This document shows, piece by piece, positions 45,707 to 52,431 of a stretch of DNA of 64,000 nt (within the stretch, counting starts at the first letter, position 1; every line of letters starts with the position of its first letter). The notes beneath the pieces are model-generated. The model searched no databases. It worked only from the letters and a program-made list of their open reading frames with translations, and was not told the DNA's origin. This stretch comes from Nonomuraea africana (GTDB lineage Bacteria; Actinomycetota; Actinomycetes; Streptosporangiales; Streptosporangiaceae): contig NZ_JADBEF010000001.1 of assembly GCF_014873535.1 (NCBI RefSeq), positions 8,122,001 to 8,186,000 of the forward strand, written 5' to 3'. Both the position numbers and the translations under genes were made by a program.

Positions 45707-46306
45707 ATGGGGATCATTTCGCGTGGCTTCCGCGGCAGGCAGCGGGACGGCGACGGCCGCCTGCCGCCAGGCCAGTACCAGGTACACGACTTTCCCGTGC
45801 TCTCCGCGGGACCCACGCCCAGGATCGAGCGGGACCAGTGGGAGTTCACCATCGACACCGAGGCCGAGCAGACCCACCGCTGGTCGTGGCAGGAGCTGAT
45901 GGCGCTGCCGCAGGAGAGCCCGACGGTCGACATCCACTGCGTGACCAAGTGGTCGAAGTTCGACACCACCTGGCAGGGCGTCTCGCTCGACGTGCTCTTC
46001 GAGGACGTCGAGACCTCGGCGGAGTACGCGCTCGTCCACTCCTACGGCGGCTACACCACCAACCTGCCGCTGGAGGACCTGCTCGACGGCAAGGCGTGGA
46101 TCTGCCACCGCTTCGACGGCGAGGAGCTCGAGCCCCAGCACGGCGGCCCCGCCAGGCTGGTCGTGCCGCATCTCTACTTCTGGAAGTCGGCCAAGTGGGT
46201 GCGCGGCATCAGGCTGCTGAACGAGGACTGGCCCGGTTTCTGGGAGACCGCGGGCTACCACCACTACGGCGACCCGTGGCGCGAGCAGCGCTACGAGGGT
46301 GATTAG
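45707..46306 (+). CDS. molybdopterin-dependent sulfite oxidase-like oxidoreductase
   Basis: A 199-residue protein holding just the molybdopterin domain of the sulfite oxidase family. The Mo-coordinating cysteine is C78 in VDIHCVTKWSKFD, and WICHRFDGEEL, GGPARLVVPHLYFWKSAKW and the ending W follow the YedY-like pattern. No heme, no dimerisation domain and no Tat signal are present, so it is probably cytoplasmic. It overlaps the next gene, a flavin reductase, which is the likely electron partner. Confidence 0.9.
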   Translation: MGIISRGFRGRQRDGDGRLPPGQYQVHDFPVLSAGPTPRIERDQWEFTIDTEAEQTHRWSWQELMALPQESPTVDIHCVTKWSKFDTTWQGVSLDVLFEDVETSAEYALVHSYGGYTTNLPLEDLLDGKAWICHRFDGEELEPQHGGPARLVVPHLYFWKSAKWVRGIRLLNEDWPGFWETAGYHHYGDPWREQRYEGD

Positions 46307-46964
46307 GTGGCGGCGCGCGCGGCTGACCGCCGCGCGCGAGGAGACCCCGACCGCGCGCACGCTGGTCTTCGAAGTGGCCGACTGGCCAGGTCACCTGGCA
46401 GGTCAGCACGTCGACGTACGGCTGACCGCGCCCGACGGCTACACGGCGCAGCGCAGCTACTCCCTGGCCGCCCCCGAGGGCGTCGAGCTGACCGTCGAGG
46501 GACTGCCCGATGGCGAGGTCTCGCCGTACCTCGTCGACGAGCTGACGGTGGGCGACGAGATCGAGCTGCGCGGGCCGGTCGGCGGCTGGTTCGTGTGGCG
46601 GCCCGCCGTCACGACGCCGGTGCTGCTGGTGGCGGGCGGCTCGGGGATCGTGCCACTCATGGCGATGATCAGGGCCAGGCGGCTGATGGGCGGCGAGACG
46701 CCGTTCCATCTGGTCTACTCGCTGGGCGAGCCCGCCCGCCGGTACTACGCCGCCGAGCTGGACACGCCCGAGCCGTGGCTGACCATCACCTGGGTCCACA
46801 CCAGGGTCGCGCCGCACCGCAGGATCACCAAGGACGACCTGCCGGGCCCTGGACCCGACGTGTTCGTGTGCGGGCCGACCGGCTTCGTCGAGGCCGCCGC
46901 CGACCTGCTGCTCGACCTCGGCCACGACCCCGGGCAGGTCAGGACCGAGCGTTTTGGAGGCTGA
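46299..46964 (+). CDS. FAD-dependent ferredoxin reductase-type oxidoreductase
   Basis: A 221-residue FNR-family protein: FAD motif QRSYSLAAPEG (RxYS), NAD(P) motif LLVAGGSGIVPLMAMIR and the C-terminal VFVCGPTGFVEAAADLLL. It has no [2Fe-2S] domain. The GTG start overlaps the molybdoenzyme by 8 bp. It would pass electrons between NAD(P)H and the molybdenum centre. Confidence 0.92.
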   Translation: MIRWRRARLTAAREETPTARTLVFEVADWPGHLAGQHVDVRLTAPDGYTAQRSYSLAAPEGVELTVEGLPDGEVSPYLVDELTVGDEIELRGPVGGWFVWRPAVTTPVLLVAGGSGIVPLMAMIRARRLMGGETPFHLVYSLGEPARRYYAAELDTPEPWLTITWVHTRVAPHRRITKDDLPGPGPDVFVCGPTGFVEAAADLLLDLGHDPGQVRTERFGG

Positions 46965-47729: not shown

Positions 47730-49898
47730 TCAGGCCTGGGAGCGATCCGGTCGGCACACCGTTCCCCGAGGGGGCAAGCGCAGGTCGATGAGGTAACGGT
47801 TGGCGTGGGCGATCGTGCACGCGTCGCCGGTGAGGTACAGCCCGTGCCCGTGCCCCTCGAAGCGGACCGTCGACGACCCCGGCACCCGCGTCGCCAGGTC
47901 GGCGGTGTCGGCGTAGTCGGTCCACGTGCCCGCGCCGAGGAACGGCGGCAGTCCCGCCGTGGGCAGCGGCGCGGCCGGGTTCTGCACCGGCAGCGGCCAG
48001 CCCACGCAGCCGAGCCGGTGCCAGACCACGTTGCCGGCCAGGTTCGGCGACAGGCGCTCGCCGAGCTTCCTGACGCTCCGGTAGTCGGCGTAATCGCGGA
48101 AGCGGTAGCCGTCCAGGCAGTGGGTCATGTTCATCCCGACGAAGGCCATGGGCTTCGGGCTGCCGATCCCGGCCCCGACGTACCCGGCGAAGCCCGAGGC
48201 GTCCCCCCGCTCGGCCCTTTCGATGCTCTCGGACAGCTCCTTCCACCTCGCGTGGTCGGCGCCCGGTGAGATCAGGTGCGGAGCGGCGGCGATCTGCAGG
48301 TCGAACCCGCTGTAGGCGATCTCGCGCGCCGGGATCGGCGAGCGGTCGGCGGCGGCGAGCAGCGCGCGCCACGCCGCACCCGCGTCGCGTCCGTGCAACG
48401 CGCACGCGGTGCTGGACGCGCACCAGGTGACGAAGCGGCCGAACTGCGCCTCCATGACCGTGTGGCGGTCGTTCCTGCCGACCTGGTTCACGATGCCGTC
48501 CAGGTACATCGCCCTGATCCTGCGGGGGAAGAGCCTGGCGTAGGCGTAGGCGGGCACGCCGCCGTAGGAGGTGGCGACGAAGCTGAGCCGTTCCTCGCCG
48601 AGCGCGGCGCGGACGGCGTCGATGTCCCTGGCGACGGAGGCCGAGTCGAGGTGGCCGAACAGCTCGGGGTCACGGGCCGCGCACCGCAGCGCGGCGGCGC
48701 GGTTCGCCCTGCCCAGCTGGTCGTACGCGCGCTCGTCGCGGGGCAGCGTCAGCCACGGACCCTTCTCCAGGCACTCGGAGGAGAAGATCTCCAGCGCGGG
48801 CGAGTTGCGCGGCGTGAAGCTGACCACGTCGAACCGCCTGCGCAGGTGCGCGAAGCTGCCTCCCGACTTCTCCAGGTCGTCGACGCCCGAAGCGCCGGGG
48901 CCGCCGGGGATGGAGAAGACGGTGCCGATCCTGCGGCCCGTGCCCGTCGTGGCGAGCCTGGCCACAGGCAGGCTGATCTTCCGGCCGCCGGGCTCGTCCC
49001 AGTCCACCGGCACCTGGACCGAGCCGCACTCCATGTCCTCGCGGCACGGCTTCCAGTCGATGGCGGACGCCGCGCCGGCGGGCTGGGCGACGACCACCGT
49101 CGCCACCAGCACGCCGGTGGCCGCCAGCCCCGCGACCAGCGGCCTGGCCCTGCGCCCGCGCACGACGATGGCCACCGCGCCGGCCATCATCGCAACGACC
49201 GGATAGGCGACCAGCACCGCGGCCGCGGCCAGTGGGGGCAGCAGGTCGCCGCCTCCGACGATCAGGTACGCGCCGATCCGCGAGCCCCACGGGCTCGGCA
49301 GCGTCATTGCGGCGGTCGGCAGCACGAACACCAGCATGATCAGCACCACCAGCGAGCCCGCCGTGGAGCGCAGCACCGTGCCCACGCCGAGCCCGACCAG
49401 CGCCACCAGCGGCACCGACGCGCCCGCGAGCGCCACCTCGGCCAGCACGCCGGGCTCGGACAGCGAGGCCCCCAGCGTCTGCCCGCTCAGCAGCACCCGG
49501 CCTGCCCGGTCGCCCAGGACGGCCTGGGTGGCGACGTGCATCCCGAAGGCCAGCACCTCACCGGAGACCAGCCCCACCACCAGCAGCATCGGCACCTTGG
49601 CGCACAGCAGCACGAGCCGCCTGGGCACCGCCACCAGGCTCGTGTCGTGCTCGGCCGTCATGGCCAGCGCCCCGAGCGCGCCGAGCACGAAGTACGCCAC
49701 GGGCAGCCCGGTGCCCAGCCCGGCGCCGAGGTTGTCGAAGCGCAGCTGGTCGGCTCCCGTCTGGTTGTCGAAGCCGCGCGTGACCATGAAGGCCGCCCCC
49801 GCGCTCAGGAACACCGCGAGCAGCGACGAGGCGAGCAGGTAGAAGTTGGAGCGCAGCGACCTGAACTTCAGCCACTCCGCCAGCACCGCGTCGATCAT
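47730..49898 (-). CDS. fusion: ABC-2-type permease plus secreted-type alpha/beta hydrolase
   Basis: One open frame of 722 residues. Residues 1-250 are an ABC-2 permease (MIDAVLAEWLKFRSLRSNFY, LGALGALAMTAEHDTSLVAV) with about six membrane segments. Residues about 247-279 (RGRRARPLVAGLAATGVLV ... PAGAASA) look like a complete Sec signal peptide with an A-x-A cleavage site. Residues 280-722 are a tripeptidyl-aminopeptidase-like hydrolase: oxyanion loop SIPGGPGASG, nucleophile S444 in ATSYGGVP, His in FEGHGHGLYL, and paired cysteines. The start overlaps the ATPase stop (ATGA). An internal GTG at 49163 could also start a separate hydrolase. Frame and codon use show no break. Confidence 0.85.
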   Translation of the reverse strand: MIDAVLAEWLKFRSLRSNFYLLASSLLAVFLSAGAAFMVTRGFDNQTGADQLRFDNLGAGLGTGLPVAYFVLGALGALAMTAEHDTSLVAVPRRLVLLCAKVPMLLVVGLVSGEVLAFGMHVATQAVLGDRAGRVLLSGQTLGASLSEPGVLAEVALAGASVPLVALVGLGVGTVLRSTAGSLVVLIMLVFVLPTAAMTLPSPWGSRIGAYLIVGGGDLLPPLAAAAVLVAYPVVAMMAGAVAIVVRGRRARPLVAGLAATGVLVATVVVAQPAGAASAIDWKPCREDMECGSVQVPVDWDEPGGRKISLPVARLATTGTGRRIGTVFSIPGGPGASGVDDLEKSGGSFAHLRRRFDVVSFTPRNSPALEIFSSECLEKGPWLTLPRDERAYDQLGRANRAAALRCAARDPELFGHLDSASVARDIDAVRAALGEERLSFVATSYGGVPAYAYARLFPRRIRAMYLDGIVNQVGRNDRHTVMEAQFGRFVTWCASSTACALHGRDAGAAWRALLAAADRSPIPAREIAYSGFDLQIAAAPHLISPGADHARWKELSESIERAERGDASGFAGYVGAGIGSPKPMAFVGMNMTHCLDGYRFRDYADYRSVRKLGERLSPNLAGNVVWHRLGCVGWPLPVQNPAAPLPTAGLPPFLGAGTWTDYADTADLATRVPGSSTVRFEGHGHGLYLTGDACTIAHANRYLIDLRLPPRGTVCRPDRSQA

Positions 49899-50785
49899 CG
49901 GAACTCCACGCTTCCCTCGGTCAACTCCATGAACGCCTCCTCGAGCGACGCCCCGCGCGGGGTCAGCTCCCGCAGCGCGATCCCCTGGGCCAGCGCCACC
50001 TCGCCGATCCGTGCGGGGTCGAGCTCCGCCACGTCGAGCGCGTCGTTCTCCCGCGCGACGGTCGCCCCGGCGGCCCGCAACGCGCGCGCCAGCCGTTCGG
50101 GCTCGGCGGCCCGGACGAGCACGCCCCGCTGGAAGCGCTCCACCAACGCGGTCATCGTGGTGTCCGCGATCAACCTGCCTCTGCCGACCACCACCACGTG
50201 GTCGGCCGTGACCGCCATCTCGCCCATGAGGTGGCTGGAGACCAGGACCGTGCGTCCCTCGGCGGCCTGCGCGCGCATCAGCTCGCGGATCCACCGCACC
50301 CCCTCGGGGTCGAGCCCGTTGACCGGCTCGTCGAACATCAGCACGGGCGGGTCGCCCAGCAGCGCCACCGCGATGCCGAGCCGCTGTTTCATACCGAGCG
50401 AGAACCCGGCGATCCGCTTGCTCCCCACCCCCGCGAGTCCCGCGAGCTCCAGCACCTCGGTCACCCTCCTGCTCCCGATGCCGTTGCTGCGCGCGACGCA
50501 GGCCACGTGCGCCCGCGCGCTGCGCCCTCCGTGGACGGCTCCCGCGTCCAGCAGGGCGCCCACCTGGCGGAGCGGCCGGGGATAGGCGGTGTAGGGGCGG
50601 CCGTCGATCAGCGCGGTGCCGCCGTGTGGGGTCTCCAGCCCGAGGACCGCGCGCATGGTGGAGGACTTGCCCGCCCCGTTCGGTCCGAGGAAGCCGGTGA
50701 CCTTCCCCGGCTTCACGGTGAACGTCAGGTCGTCGACCGCGACGGCTCGGCCGTACCTGATGGTCAGCGCGTTTATTTCGATCAC
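49895..50785 (-). CDS. ABC-2 exporter ATP-binding protein
   Basis: A 296-residue ATPase: Walker A GPNGAGKSSTMRAVLG, signature FSLGMKQRLGIAVALL, Walker B LMFDEPVNGLDP, switch His in LVSSHLMGE. The C-terminal extension (residues about 215-296) is usual for drug or lantibiotic exporters. The GTG at 50785 is divergent from the sensor kinase by 60 bp. It overlaps the permease-hydrolase gene by four bases. Confidence 0.93.
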   Translation of the reverse strand: MIEINALTIRYGRAVAVDDLTFTVKPGKVTGFLGPNGAGKSSTMRAVLGLETPHGGTALIDGRPYTAYPRPLRQVGALLDAGAVHGGRSARAHVACVARSNGIGSRRVTEVLELAGLAGVGSKRIAGFSLGMKQRLGIAVALLGDPPVLMFDEPVNGLDPEGVRWIRELMRAQAAEGRTVLVSSHLMGEMAVTADHVVVVGRGRLIADTTMTALVERFQRGVLVRAAEPERLARALRAAGATVARENDALDVAELDPARIGEVALAQGIALRELTPRGASLEEAFMELTEGSVEFR

Positions 50786-50845
50786 CCCTCCAGGCTTTCG
50801 CGCGCTCGCGCGCCGCACAGTGGGGCTGGACCTACTCTTCAAGAT

Positions 50846-51841
50846 GTGAGGCTGTTGGTGAACGCGGTGACCGGCGTGGCCGCTCTGGCCCTGCTGCTCG
50901 CGCTGCCGTTCGCGCGGCGCAGGGTGCTGGCGGCGGCCCGCAGGCTCGCCGGGTCGGACCCCGGTGACCTGCGGCTGGTCGCCTGGCTGTTCGTGCACGG
51001 CGTGACGGGCCCGGCCGCGCTCTTAGGGGTCGCGGTGGTGCTCTCGGCGGTCGGAGTGATCTGGACCCTGCGCACGGCCGAGGCCTCGATGGCCGTGACG
51101 TTCACCCTGTCGCTGTCGATGCTGGCCATCGTGGTGTTCGCCGCCGGCTTCGGCTACCTCGCCACCAGGGCCCAGGCCCGCCTCGCCGACCTGCTCCTGC
51201 GCCCCGACCCCCGCGTCAGGGAGCTGGCCGACGCGCAGGCCGCCGAGCTGCGCAGGATCGAACGCGACCTGCACGACGGCGCGCAGGCCAGGCTGATCTC
51301 CATCAGGATGACCCTCGGTCTCGCCAGGTCCGCGCGGGATCCGAGGGAGCTGATCGAGGAGGCGTGGGAGTCGGCCGGCCAGGCCCTCACCGACCTGCGT
51401 GACCTCGTGCGCGGCATCCACCCGCCGGTCCTCGCCGACCGGGGGCTCGTCGGCGCCATCCAGGCCGCCGCGCTGCTGTGCCCCGTTCCGGTACGGCTCG
51501 ACCTGGAGCTGGACGGCAGGCCCGAGGCGCCGGTGGAGTCCGCCCTCTACTTCGCCGTCACGGAGGCGCTGTCCAACGTGGCGAAACACAGCGGGGCGCG
51601 CTCCGCCTGGGTGCGCCTGGCGCACTCCGGCGGCGTCCTGCGCCTGACCGTCGGCGACGACGGCCGCGGTGGCGCCGATCCTCGCGCGGGCACCGGCCTG
51701 CGCGGCATCTCCCGCAGGCTGTCCGCCTTCGAGGGCACACTGACCGTCCACAGCCCCCCAGGCGGGCCGAGCGAACTCACCATGGAGCTGCCGTGCGCGT
51801 TGTCATCGCCGAAGATCTCGCCCTCCTCAGGGACGGGCTGA
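50846..51841 (+). CDS. sensor histidine kinase (HisKA_3/NarL-type partner)
   Basis: A 331-residue membrane kinase. Two or three membrane segments (VNAVTGVAALALLLALPFA; TGPAALLGVAVVLSAVGVI; TLSLSMLAIVVFAAGFGYLA) precede the phosphoacceptor helix ELRRIERDLHDGAQARLISI, with the His in LHDGAQ, and the ATPase domain (ALSNVAKHSGA, VGDDGRGGADP, GLRGISRRL). The starting GTG is 60 bp from the divergent exporter gene. The last 49 bases are shared with the response-regulator gene in another frame. Confidence 0.92.
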   Translation: MRLLVNAVTGVAALALLLALPFARRRVLAAARRLAGSDPGDLRLVAWLFVHGVTGPAALLGVAVVLSAVGVIWTLRTAEASMAVTFTLSLSMLAIVVFAAGFGYLATRAQARLADLLLRPDPRVRELADAQAAELRRIERDLHDGAQARLISIRMTLGLARSARDPRELIEEAWESAGQALTDLRDLVRGIHPPVLADRGLVGAIQAAALLCPVPVRLDLELDGRPEAPVESALYFAVTEALSNVAKHSGARSAWVRLAHSGGVLRLTVGDDGRGGADPRAGTGLRGISRRLSAFEGTLTVHSPPGGPSELTMELPCALSSPKISPSSGTG

Positions 51842-52431
51842 TCCGCCTGCTGACGACGCACGGCTTCGAGGTGGCTGCGGCGGTCGACAACGGCCCGATG
51901 CTGCTGGCCGCGCTGCTGCGGCACCGCCCCGACGTGGCGGTCATCGATGTACGGCTGCCGCCCACCCACACCGACGAGGGCCTGCGCGTCGCGTTGGAGG
52001 CCCGCCGCAGGATGCCTGGGCTGCCGGTGCTGATCCTCTCCCAGTACGTCGAGCAGCTCTACGCCAGGGAACTGCTGTCCGACCGGTCGGGCGGGATCGG
52101 CTATCTGCTGAAGGACAGGGTGGGTGACGTCGAGCAGTTCGTCGACTCCGTGAGGAGCGTCGCCGCCGGTGGCACCGCGCTCGACGCGGAGGTCGTCAGC
52201 CAGCTCCTGACCCGCCGCGACGACCGCCTGGCCGCGCTGACGCCGAGGGAGCGCGAGGTGCTGGCGATGATGGCCGAGGGCCTGTCCAACCAGGCCATCG
52301 CCGGCCGGTTGGTCGTCACGGACAAGGCGATCGGCAAGCACACCTCGAACATCTTCGCCAAGCTCGGACTGCCGCCCGACGACGACCTGAACCGCCGGGT
52401 CATGGCCGTCCTGGCGTACCTGGAGGCCTGA
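51793..52431 (+). CDS. NarL/FixJ-family response regulator
   Basis: A 212-residue regulator starting at a GTG inside the kinase gene (RVVIAEDLALLRDGLIRL). The phosphoacceptor Asp is in VAVIDVRLPP, the conserved Thr/Lys region is VLILSQY ... GIGYLLKDRV, and the C-terminal LuxR helix-turn-helix is LTPREREVLAMMAEGLSNQA, then KHTSNIFAKL. With the kinase it probably controls the divergent exporter in response to a membrane signal. Confidence 0.94.
   Translation: MRVVIAEDLALLRDGLIRLLTTHGFEVAAAVDNGPMLLAALLRHRPDVAVIDVRLPPTHTDEGLRVALEARRRMPGLPVLILSQYVEQLYARELLSDRSGGIGYLLKDRVGDVEQFVDSVRSVAAGGTALDAEVVSQLLTRRDDRLAALTPREREVLAMMAEGLSNQAIAGRLVVTDKAIGKHTSNIFAKLGLPPDDDLNRRVMAVLAYLEA

Follow-up and report, generated by a model that had tools for sequence, protein, structure and literature searches.

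A conserved fusion of an ABC-2 permease with a Hip1/TAP-like alpha/beta hydrolase in the Streptosporangiaceae

INTRODUCTION

Can an ABC-2 exporter carry, on the same polypeptide chain as its membrane domain, a hydrolase that works at the outer face of the cell and, if so, what might such an arrangement be for? This question is raised by a gene within a stretch of 64,000 nucleotides from Nonomuraea africana, hereafter the window, whose genome measures 9.69 Mb and is close to that of Nonomuraea dietziae. A preliminary description, based on the letters of the window, had proposed that an ABC-2 permease and a hydrolase of the secreted type share a single reading frame at this locus, and the proposal is followed up here by comparison with homologous genes and their surroundings. 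The fusion is real and conserved in its family of soil bacteria. This joining of an ABC-2 exporter and an external hydrolase in one chain is apparently undescribed, and no account of it was found in the open-licence literature on fusions between ABC-2 permeases and hydrolases.

THE FUSION GENE AND ITS CONSERVATION

The features discussed below are listed with their coordinates in the window.

47730..49898, minus strand: fusion gene, 722 aa (ATG at 49898, stop at 47732-47730), with 34 distinct homologous frames
49161..49898, minus strand: ABC-2 permease part, residues 1-246, with six hydrophobic segments (from hydropathy averaged over 34 homologues, PF12730 in relatives and the permease tree)
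49647..49652, minus strand: E-H, residues 83-84, place of a five-residue gap in the cytoplasmic loop that joins segments 2 and 3 and presumably couples to the ATPase
49083..49139, minus strand: seventh hydrophobic segment, residues 254-272, preceded by the basic cluster RGRRARP (247-253); either an internal signal sequence or an anchor in the membrane
47751..49055, minus strand: Hip1/TAP-like alpha/beta hydrolase, residues 282-716, with Ser444, Asp661, His685 and ten cysteines
49895..50785, minus strand: ABC ATPase, 296 aa, GTG start, with Walker A, signature, Walker B and H-loop
50786..50848: divergent promoter region, ~63 bp, with a repeat copy bearing two mismatches at ~50819-50836 (computed from its offset)
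50849..51841, plus strand: histidine kinase (HisKA_3, HATPase_c), ~330 aa, start codon approximate
51793..52431, plus strand: NarL/LuxR-type response regulator, 212 aa
47163..47684, minus strand: GNAT acetyltransferase, 45 bp downstream of the fusion, beside it in the window and in N. dietziae only

The frame runs without interruption from 49898 to 47730 and its product is laid out as a six-helix ABC-2 permease (residues ~1-246), a hydrophobic stretch (254-272) and a Hip1/TAP-like alpha/beta hydrolase (~282-716). The proposed single frame is thus borne out, on the minus strand, the strand having been left unstated at first. A stop codon between the two domains in relatives had been named as the observation that would overturn the fusion, and the 34 distinct homologous frames are all open across the join. 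An artefact of assembly or annotation, in which a missed stop or a frameshift joins two separate genes, was accordingly rejected: all 34 distinct homologues read in frame and the N. dietziae copy is 89% identical to the fusion of the window, which makes such an error vanishingly improbable.

Full-length fusions are present in 29 of 54 Nonomuraea genomes, that of the window included; 27 of these are covered by one match over residues ~1-716, to which are added G008, with a frame of 772 aa, and G009, where one open stretch of 1301 aa contains residues 1-715. Nonomuraea gerenzanensis is a carrier and its copy is identical to that of genome G017. Among 200 genomes sampled from the family, full-length copies were found in six further genera (G064, G077, G113, G116, G171 and G233), and one more carrier, G870, is of the same genus as G233. 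Searches of the class (394 genomes, best two candidates per genome, E <= 1e-100) and of the order (best five candidates per genome, E <= 1e-60) listed matches from Streptosporangiaceae only and, as in a search of 246 genomes of the phylum with a permease profile (best ten candidates per genome), so few candidates were scored per genome that a similar but unrelated fusion might have gone unnoticed elsewhere.

MEMBRANE TOPOLOGY OF THE PERMEASE HALF

Hydropathy averaged over the 34 homologues delineates hydrophobic segments at residues 21-39, 64-82, 102-120, 151-169, 182-200, 228-246 and 254-272; the hydrolase part is free of them, the highest 19-residue mean beyond residue 300 being 0.68. Mean counts of K+R against D+E, taken loop by loop over the same 34 homologues, are 3.2/1.9, 2.6/3.6, 3.5/1.1, 1.8/2.9, 1.0/0, 1.4/1.2 and 3.4/0, with 1.7/3.6 after the seventh segment. 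Basic residues therefore exceed acidic ones in the loops presumed to lie inside, and in those presumed outside acidic residues are higher or near even, the sixth loop being nearly even. This is the charge pattern for a protein that begins inside, crosses the membrane in six helices, has its RGRRARP cluster on the inner side and bears the hydrolase on the outer, and it lends support to the earlier suggestion that the hydrolase sits on the outer face.

A six-helix ABC-2 membrane domain is indicated by the six segments together with PF12730 (ABC2_membrane_4), which matches 10 of 15 aligned fusion permeases (best E 2.6e-6). The permease half of the window copy itself matched no Pfam model at E <= 1, and the permease profile matched no PDB sequence at E <= 1. 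AlphaFold2 models of six fusions had a mean pLDDT of 33.9 and were set aside.

THE HYDROLASE DOMAIN

The hydrolase is matched in Pfam by PF08386 (34.2 bits, cut-off 21) and PF00561 (33.1 bits, cut-off 25.8). The closest solved structures to the domain are entries of Hip1/CaeA, and a profile of nine relatives matches Hip1 over the whole domain length (E 6.7e-54). Across the 34 homologues, Ser444 and His685 are invariant (34/34 each), whilst position 661 is Asp in 32 and Glu in two. As Asp661 lies in a loop four residues shorter than that of Hip1, it is the presumptive third member of a Ser-Asp-His triad of the S33 type, in which the serine and histidine are in place. All ten cysteines are kept in 34/34 homologues, which suits an oxidising location. 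On the strength of these residues the hydrolase is likely to be active.

The family of Hip1/TAP-like hydrolases also covers non-peptidase chemistry, such as that of TnmK2, and TnmK2 is itself among the PDB matches of the domain. Since the family spans peptidases and other chemistries, the substrate is not readable from the sequence. PADLOC assigned the hydrolase to its candidate model 'TAP-like protein' (E 2.7e-53); this was taken as family likeness, and a meaning in phage defence was set aside.

THE LINKER AND THE FATE OF THE HYDROLASE

Between the two halves, a basic cluster, a hydrophobic run free of charges and at least one -3/-1 site are common to all 34 linkers, and in 34/34 the first 18 residues past the last basic residue are devoid of D, E, K and R. 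In the window the motif AGAASA occupies residues 274-279. As evidence of cleavage, the -3/-1 count is worthless, because sites of any kind, found in 34/34 linkers, are also found in 32.3/34 shuffled tails; the stricter A-x-A occurs in 27/34 linkers against 21.3 (sd 2.6) in shuffles, of which 40 in 2000 reach 27. The linker is more variable than the domains in most of the compared pairs; among the seven, its Ka/Ks is 0.55-1.08 for four, 0.72 for one more and 0.19-0.20 for the other two. The segment looks like a signal sequence by its anatomy, and cleavage of the fusion by signal peptidase is possible.

If signal peptidase does cut after the seventh segment, the gene would encode a polyprotein that is split into an ordinary permease and a freely secreted hydrolase, and the fusion would couple no more than their dosage. 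The signal-peptide anatomy of the linkers, including the 18 residues clear of charge, speaks for this, as do seven free hydrolases near the fused ones (L035, L036, L037, L042, L051, L052 and L053), which start with short N-termini resembling signal peptides at the place of the linker and which nest within the fused clade in a first tree (87/97). However, A-x-A exceeds the shuffles only mildly, and the nesting is not firm, as the AU test allows for all fused rows in a single clade (p 0.142). In a second tree, with seven distant rows left out, the groups are arranged differently and the L002 group even falls within the fused rows, and fission of the seven from the fusion is not claimed. Possible lipoprotein signals seen by eye in split relatives, LAAGC in L117 and LAGC/LAAC in L118/L119, also weigh against release, since such N-termini, if real, would point to tethering of the hydrolase. 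We would place the polyprotein at slightly under an even chance.

Release by another route, an internal start at the GTG at 49163 (residue 246), had also been put forward. It was rejected as unsupported: a scan found no Shine-Dalgarno-like stretch at that GTG and no start codon is kept there in relatives.

A CONSERVED FOUR-GENE MODULE

An adjacent ATPase and a divergent kinase/regulator had been noted beside the fusion, and both are confirmed. The ATPase gene lies on the minus strand and its stop overlaps the fusion ATG by 4 bp; kinase and regulator are on the plus strand. In its Walker A, Walker B, signature and H-loop motifs the window ATPase is consistent with 31 other ATPases, as is fitting for the cognate ATPase of an ABC-2 exporter. 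By tblastn, an ATPase gene is found upstream of the fusion in 32 of 34 distinct loci, the match stopping at residue 218 in L013 and L032, and most of these genes end 1 or 4 bp inside the fusion start.

Proteins of at least 90 aa were clustered across 38 stretches around genes of the fusion clade, L041 and L148 being one locus and L121 lacking the hydrolase. Gene calls came from a home-made finder whose errors include missed ATPase genes that tblastn finds. With it, the fusion is counted in 38 stretches, the regulator in 35, the kinase and the ATPase in 34 each and the next cluster in only four; a small precursor peptide would be missed at this size threshold. The conserved module consists of four genes: fusion, ATPase, kinase and regulator. 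The GNAT acetyltransferase is probably not part of it, as it stands beside the fusion in only 2 of the 38 stretches. Further along in the window, at 45707-46964, are two adjacent frames that by eye resemble a sulfite-oxidase-type molybdopterin protein and a flavin/ferredoxin reductase; they are also beside the module in N. dietziae.

The divergent promoter regions share an inverted repeat, GGTRGG-N6-CCYACC, which within 250 bp is exact in 32 of 37 regions and has one mismatch in three and two in two, shuffles giving an expected 0.01 exact repeats per 37 regions. The pattern was picked by eye from the same upstream sequences in which it was later counted, and the loci are related, so that the count of 32/37 overstates its significance. 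Of the 38 stretches, that of N. dietziae, lacking an ATPase start, was left out; the 37 include L121, without hydrolase, and L140 and L168, which are one locus by exact match of the fusion, leaving 36 distinct. The window copy is among those with two mismatches, and the window yields no match to the repeat at one mismatch or fewer. The repeat is not enriched genome-wide, with 18 matches against 39 for a control read backwards, and at one mismatch or fewer it is absent from L118, L119, L038 and the seven free-hydrolase loci; in L120 there is one site, far from the gene. Four exact sites occur elsewhere in the genome, one of which (L170:1501-1518, GGTAGG-N6-CCTACC) lies between two divergent genes, one of them possibly a membrane sensor. 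We take the repeat to be a putative site of the module's regulator.

ORIGIN OF THE FUSION

In the permease tree, the 34 fused permeases and that of L064 form one clade (99/98), to which the pair L067/L070 is sister (98/90). Among 52 unfused permease loci, no others have such a hydrolase in their 1.5-kb flanks. The wider stretches L118 (G061) and L119 (G121) have hydrolase, ATPase and permease genes in that order with 4-bp overlaps and a divergent kinase/regulator, and in the window's own genome L117 (L007; 6170-9432) has separate genes, in this order, for an ATPase, an ABC-2 permease and a hydrolase with a lipoprotein-like start. As the nearest unfused permeases adjoin a separate hydrolase gene in operons, the fusion appears to have grown out of an existing partnership. 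Among 12 free hydrolases like that of L118, eight have a kinase/regulator within 1.5 kb and two, those of L118 and L119, an ABC transporter. The likely order of events, judging from these arrangements, is that a hydrolase with its sensor pair was joined by an exporter and that hydrolase and exporter then became one chain.

The hydrolases of L118 and L119 are ~31-32% identical to the fused one and are not the closest relatives of the fused hydrolases, which points either to an exchange of the hydrolase or to thin sampling. A free hydrolase 48% identical to the fused one is found in L120 (7427-10979), where no ABC genes accompany it and a kinase/regulator pair sharing 48-57% identity with the window pair is divergently transcribed.

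APPARENT EROSION OF THE MODULE IN THE WINDOW LINEAGE

The copy in the window looks partly eroded. In ABC-2 exporters, the loop between segments 2 and 3 presumably contacts the ATPase, and it is in this loop, at residues 83/84, that the window and N. dietziae rows have a gap of five residues (2/34), absent from the other 32. In N. dietziae nearly all of the ATPase gene is gone between kinase and fusion (L038:5880-6000), leaving a C-terminal remnant beside an intact fusion of 720 aa, and in genome G039 (L031/L144) the ATPase gene is in fragments beside one of two fusion copies. Losses have also befallen the other half: in L121 (7436-8374) of genome G114, which contains the L064 permease of the fusion clade, a frame of 312 aa ends just past the linker and the hydrolase is lost. 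Hydrolase loss in G114, the ATPase losses and the erosion on the exporter side show that the two halves can be lost apart.

It could be, then, that the window lineage is losing its capacity for export and that the main use of the permease is now to deliver the hydrolase and anchor it in the membrane. The gap in the presumed coupling loop and the ATPase deletion in N. dietziae would both be accounted for, as would the two mismatches in the window repeat and the failure of PF12730-type models, which fit 10 of 15 relatives, to fit the window permease. Against this, the window ATPase keeps its motifs, and Ka/Ks between the window and N. dietziae is lower in the permease part (0.144) than in the hydrolase part (0.317), so that the permease half is either still constrained or its loss is recent. 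Moreover, N. dietziae and G039 each possess a second fusion copy with a complete ATPase gene adjoining (L154 and L155, the latter in G039), and an ATPase could therefore be shared. Loss of export strikes us as rather unlikely. The state of the window copy may reflect either a recent loss, a shared ATPase or a permease kept as an anchor.

A PROPOSED FUNCTION

The explanation we favour, which as a whole stands at about even chances, is that the four genes specify an exporter with an outer hydrolase, tethered or freed, that is induced by its own sensor pair and is protective at the surface. It draws on the conserved fusion, the topology pattern, the catalytic residues, the four-gene module, the shared repeat and the descent from separate-gene operons, all of which were computed. 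The C-terminus of the ABC-2 permease would lie in the cytoplasm, and the seventh hydrophobic segment would act as an internal signal sequence that threads the Hip1/TAP-like serine hydrolase to the outer face. Translational coupling of ATPase and fusion would provide exporter and external hydrolase in fixed proportion, whilst the divergent histidine kinase and response regulator would switch the operon on through the shared promoter. Provided that the exporter works, which we infer, a harmful and perhaps peptidic compound would be cleared from the membrane and hydrolysed at the cell surface. A narrower version, in which an intact exporter bears its own external serine hydrolase, acts with it on each molecule leaving the pump and is induced by its own sensor pair, is held more tentatively and is somewhat doubtful; such a protein would mirror, on the outer side, the peptidase-containing ABC transporters (PCATs).

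By analogy, a role in inducible detoxification or processing at the cell surface is likely, and we would rank protection first and maturation second. The case for protection derives from analogy and from the absence of biosynthetic neighbours; patchy occurrence, changing neighbours and possession of a sensor of its own also fit protection better than a biosynthetic module. Maturation would follow a prodrug-style scheme, whereby the cell makes a protected compound, exports it and has it unmasked outside by the fused hydrolase. N-acetylpuromycin N-acetylhydrolase (NapH), which we take to be of the same hydrolase family as the fused domain, makes such a role conceivable, and downstream of the fusion, in the window as well as in N. 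dietziae, there is a co-oriented gene for a GNAT acetyltransferase. The puromycin scheme offers a precedent (PMC11641026). Nevertheless, an acetyltransferase at this place in only two of 38 stretches, and the lack of any other neighbour cluster of proteins of at least 90 aa in more than four of the 38, make maturation distinctly unlikely. The initial idea that the system might export something and process it thus survives as one of two readings, the lack of a conserved biosynthetic neighbour in the 38 stretches tilting the balance towards the protective role that we prefer.

Within a single antibiotic-producing family, an evolutionary series extends from a free hydrolase with a sensor, through an operon with an exporter and the fusion, to the loss of either half. 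With this series, the idea that ABC-2 exporter and external hydrolase are functionally linked can be put to the test, a defined promoter element is at hand for induction tests, and natural variants without ATPase, without hydrolase or with a shortened coupling loop could separate transport from hydrolysis.

COMPARISON WITH KNOWN SYSTEMS

The enzymes closest to the fused domain are Hip1/CaeA of Mycobacterium tuberculosis (PDB 5ugq, 7sfm) and the Streptomyces tripeptidyl aminopeptidase, whose triad serine and histidine align with those of the fusion; in contrast, both are stand-alone enzymes, and the loop of the catalytic aspartate is the one shortened by four residues in the fusion. The operons L118/G061, L119/G121 and L117 have hydrolase, ATPase and ABC-2 permease side by side, as in the module, but as three genes, that of the hydrolase being first in L118 and L119 and last, and lipoprotein-like, in L117.

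Hydrolase and exporter also share one chain in the PCATs, where a cytosolic N-terminal C39 cysteine peptidase trims the cargo before export. In the fusion, the hydrolase is instead C-terminal, of the serine type and outside, and a Pfam scan of the fusion gave no match to a C39 peptidase. A polytopic protein, an internal signal sequence and an external domain are likewise combined in the cytochrome b-c1 polyprotein (FbcH) of Bradyrhizobium, a respiratory protein unrelated to the fusion. In the puromycin system, N-acetylpuromycin N-acetylhydrolase acts outside after export of N-acetylpuromycin (PMC11641026); the genes are separate members of a biosynthetic cluster, whereas no such cluster is conserved around the fusion.

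A parallel in overall make-up is provided by nisin-resistance loci, where a two-component system, an ABC transporter and an external peptidase occur together (PMC8003753). NSR/NsrFP/NsrRK of Streptococcus agalactiae and like operons of Corynebacterium have the same combination of extracytoplasmic peptidase, ABC transporter and two-component system, which is matched here by a regulator in 35/38 and a kinase in 34/38 stretches beside the fusion. The NSR systems employ a ten-helix permease of the FtsX/BceB type and an S41 peptidase encoded by separate genes, in contrast to the ABC-2-type permease and alpha/beta hydrolase fused here. The Pfam scan of the fusion gave only alpha/beta hydrolase models and no S41 tail-specific peptidase, and the families listed for 15 members include ABC2_membrane models and no FtsX, so that BceB/FtsX-type permeases are absent from that list. 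As the peptidase and permease families differ, the fusion module is not of the NSR kind; by analogy, it is likely to work like the NSR-type lantibiotic-resistance modules without belonging to them.
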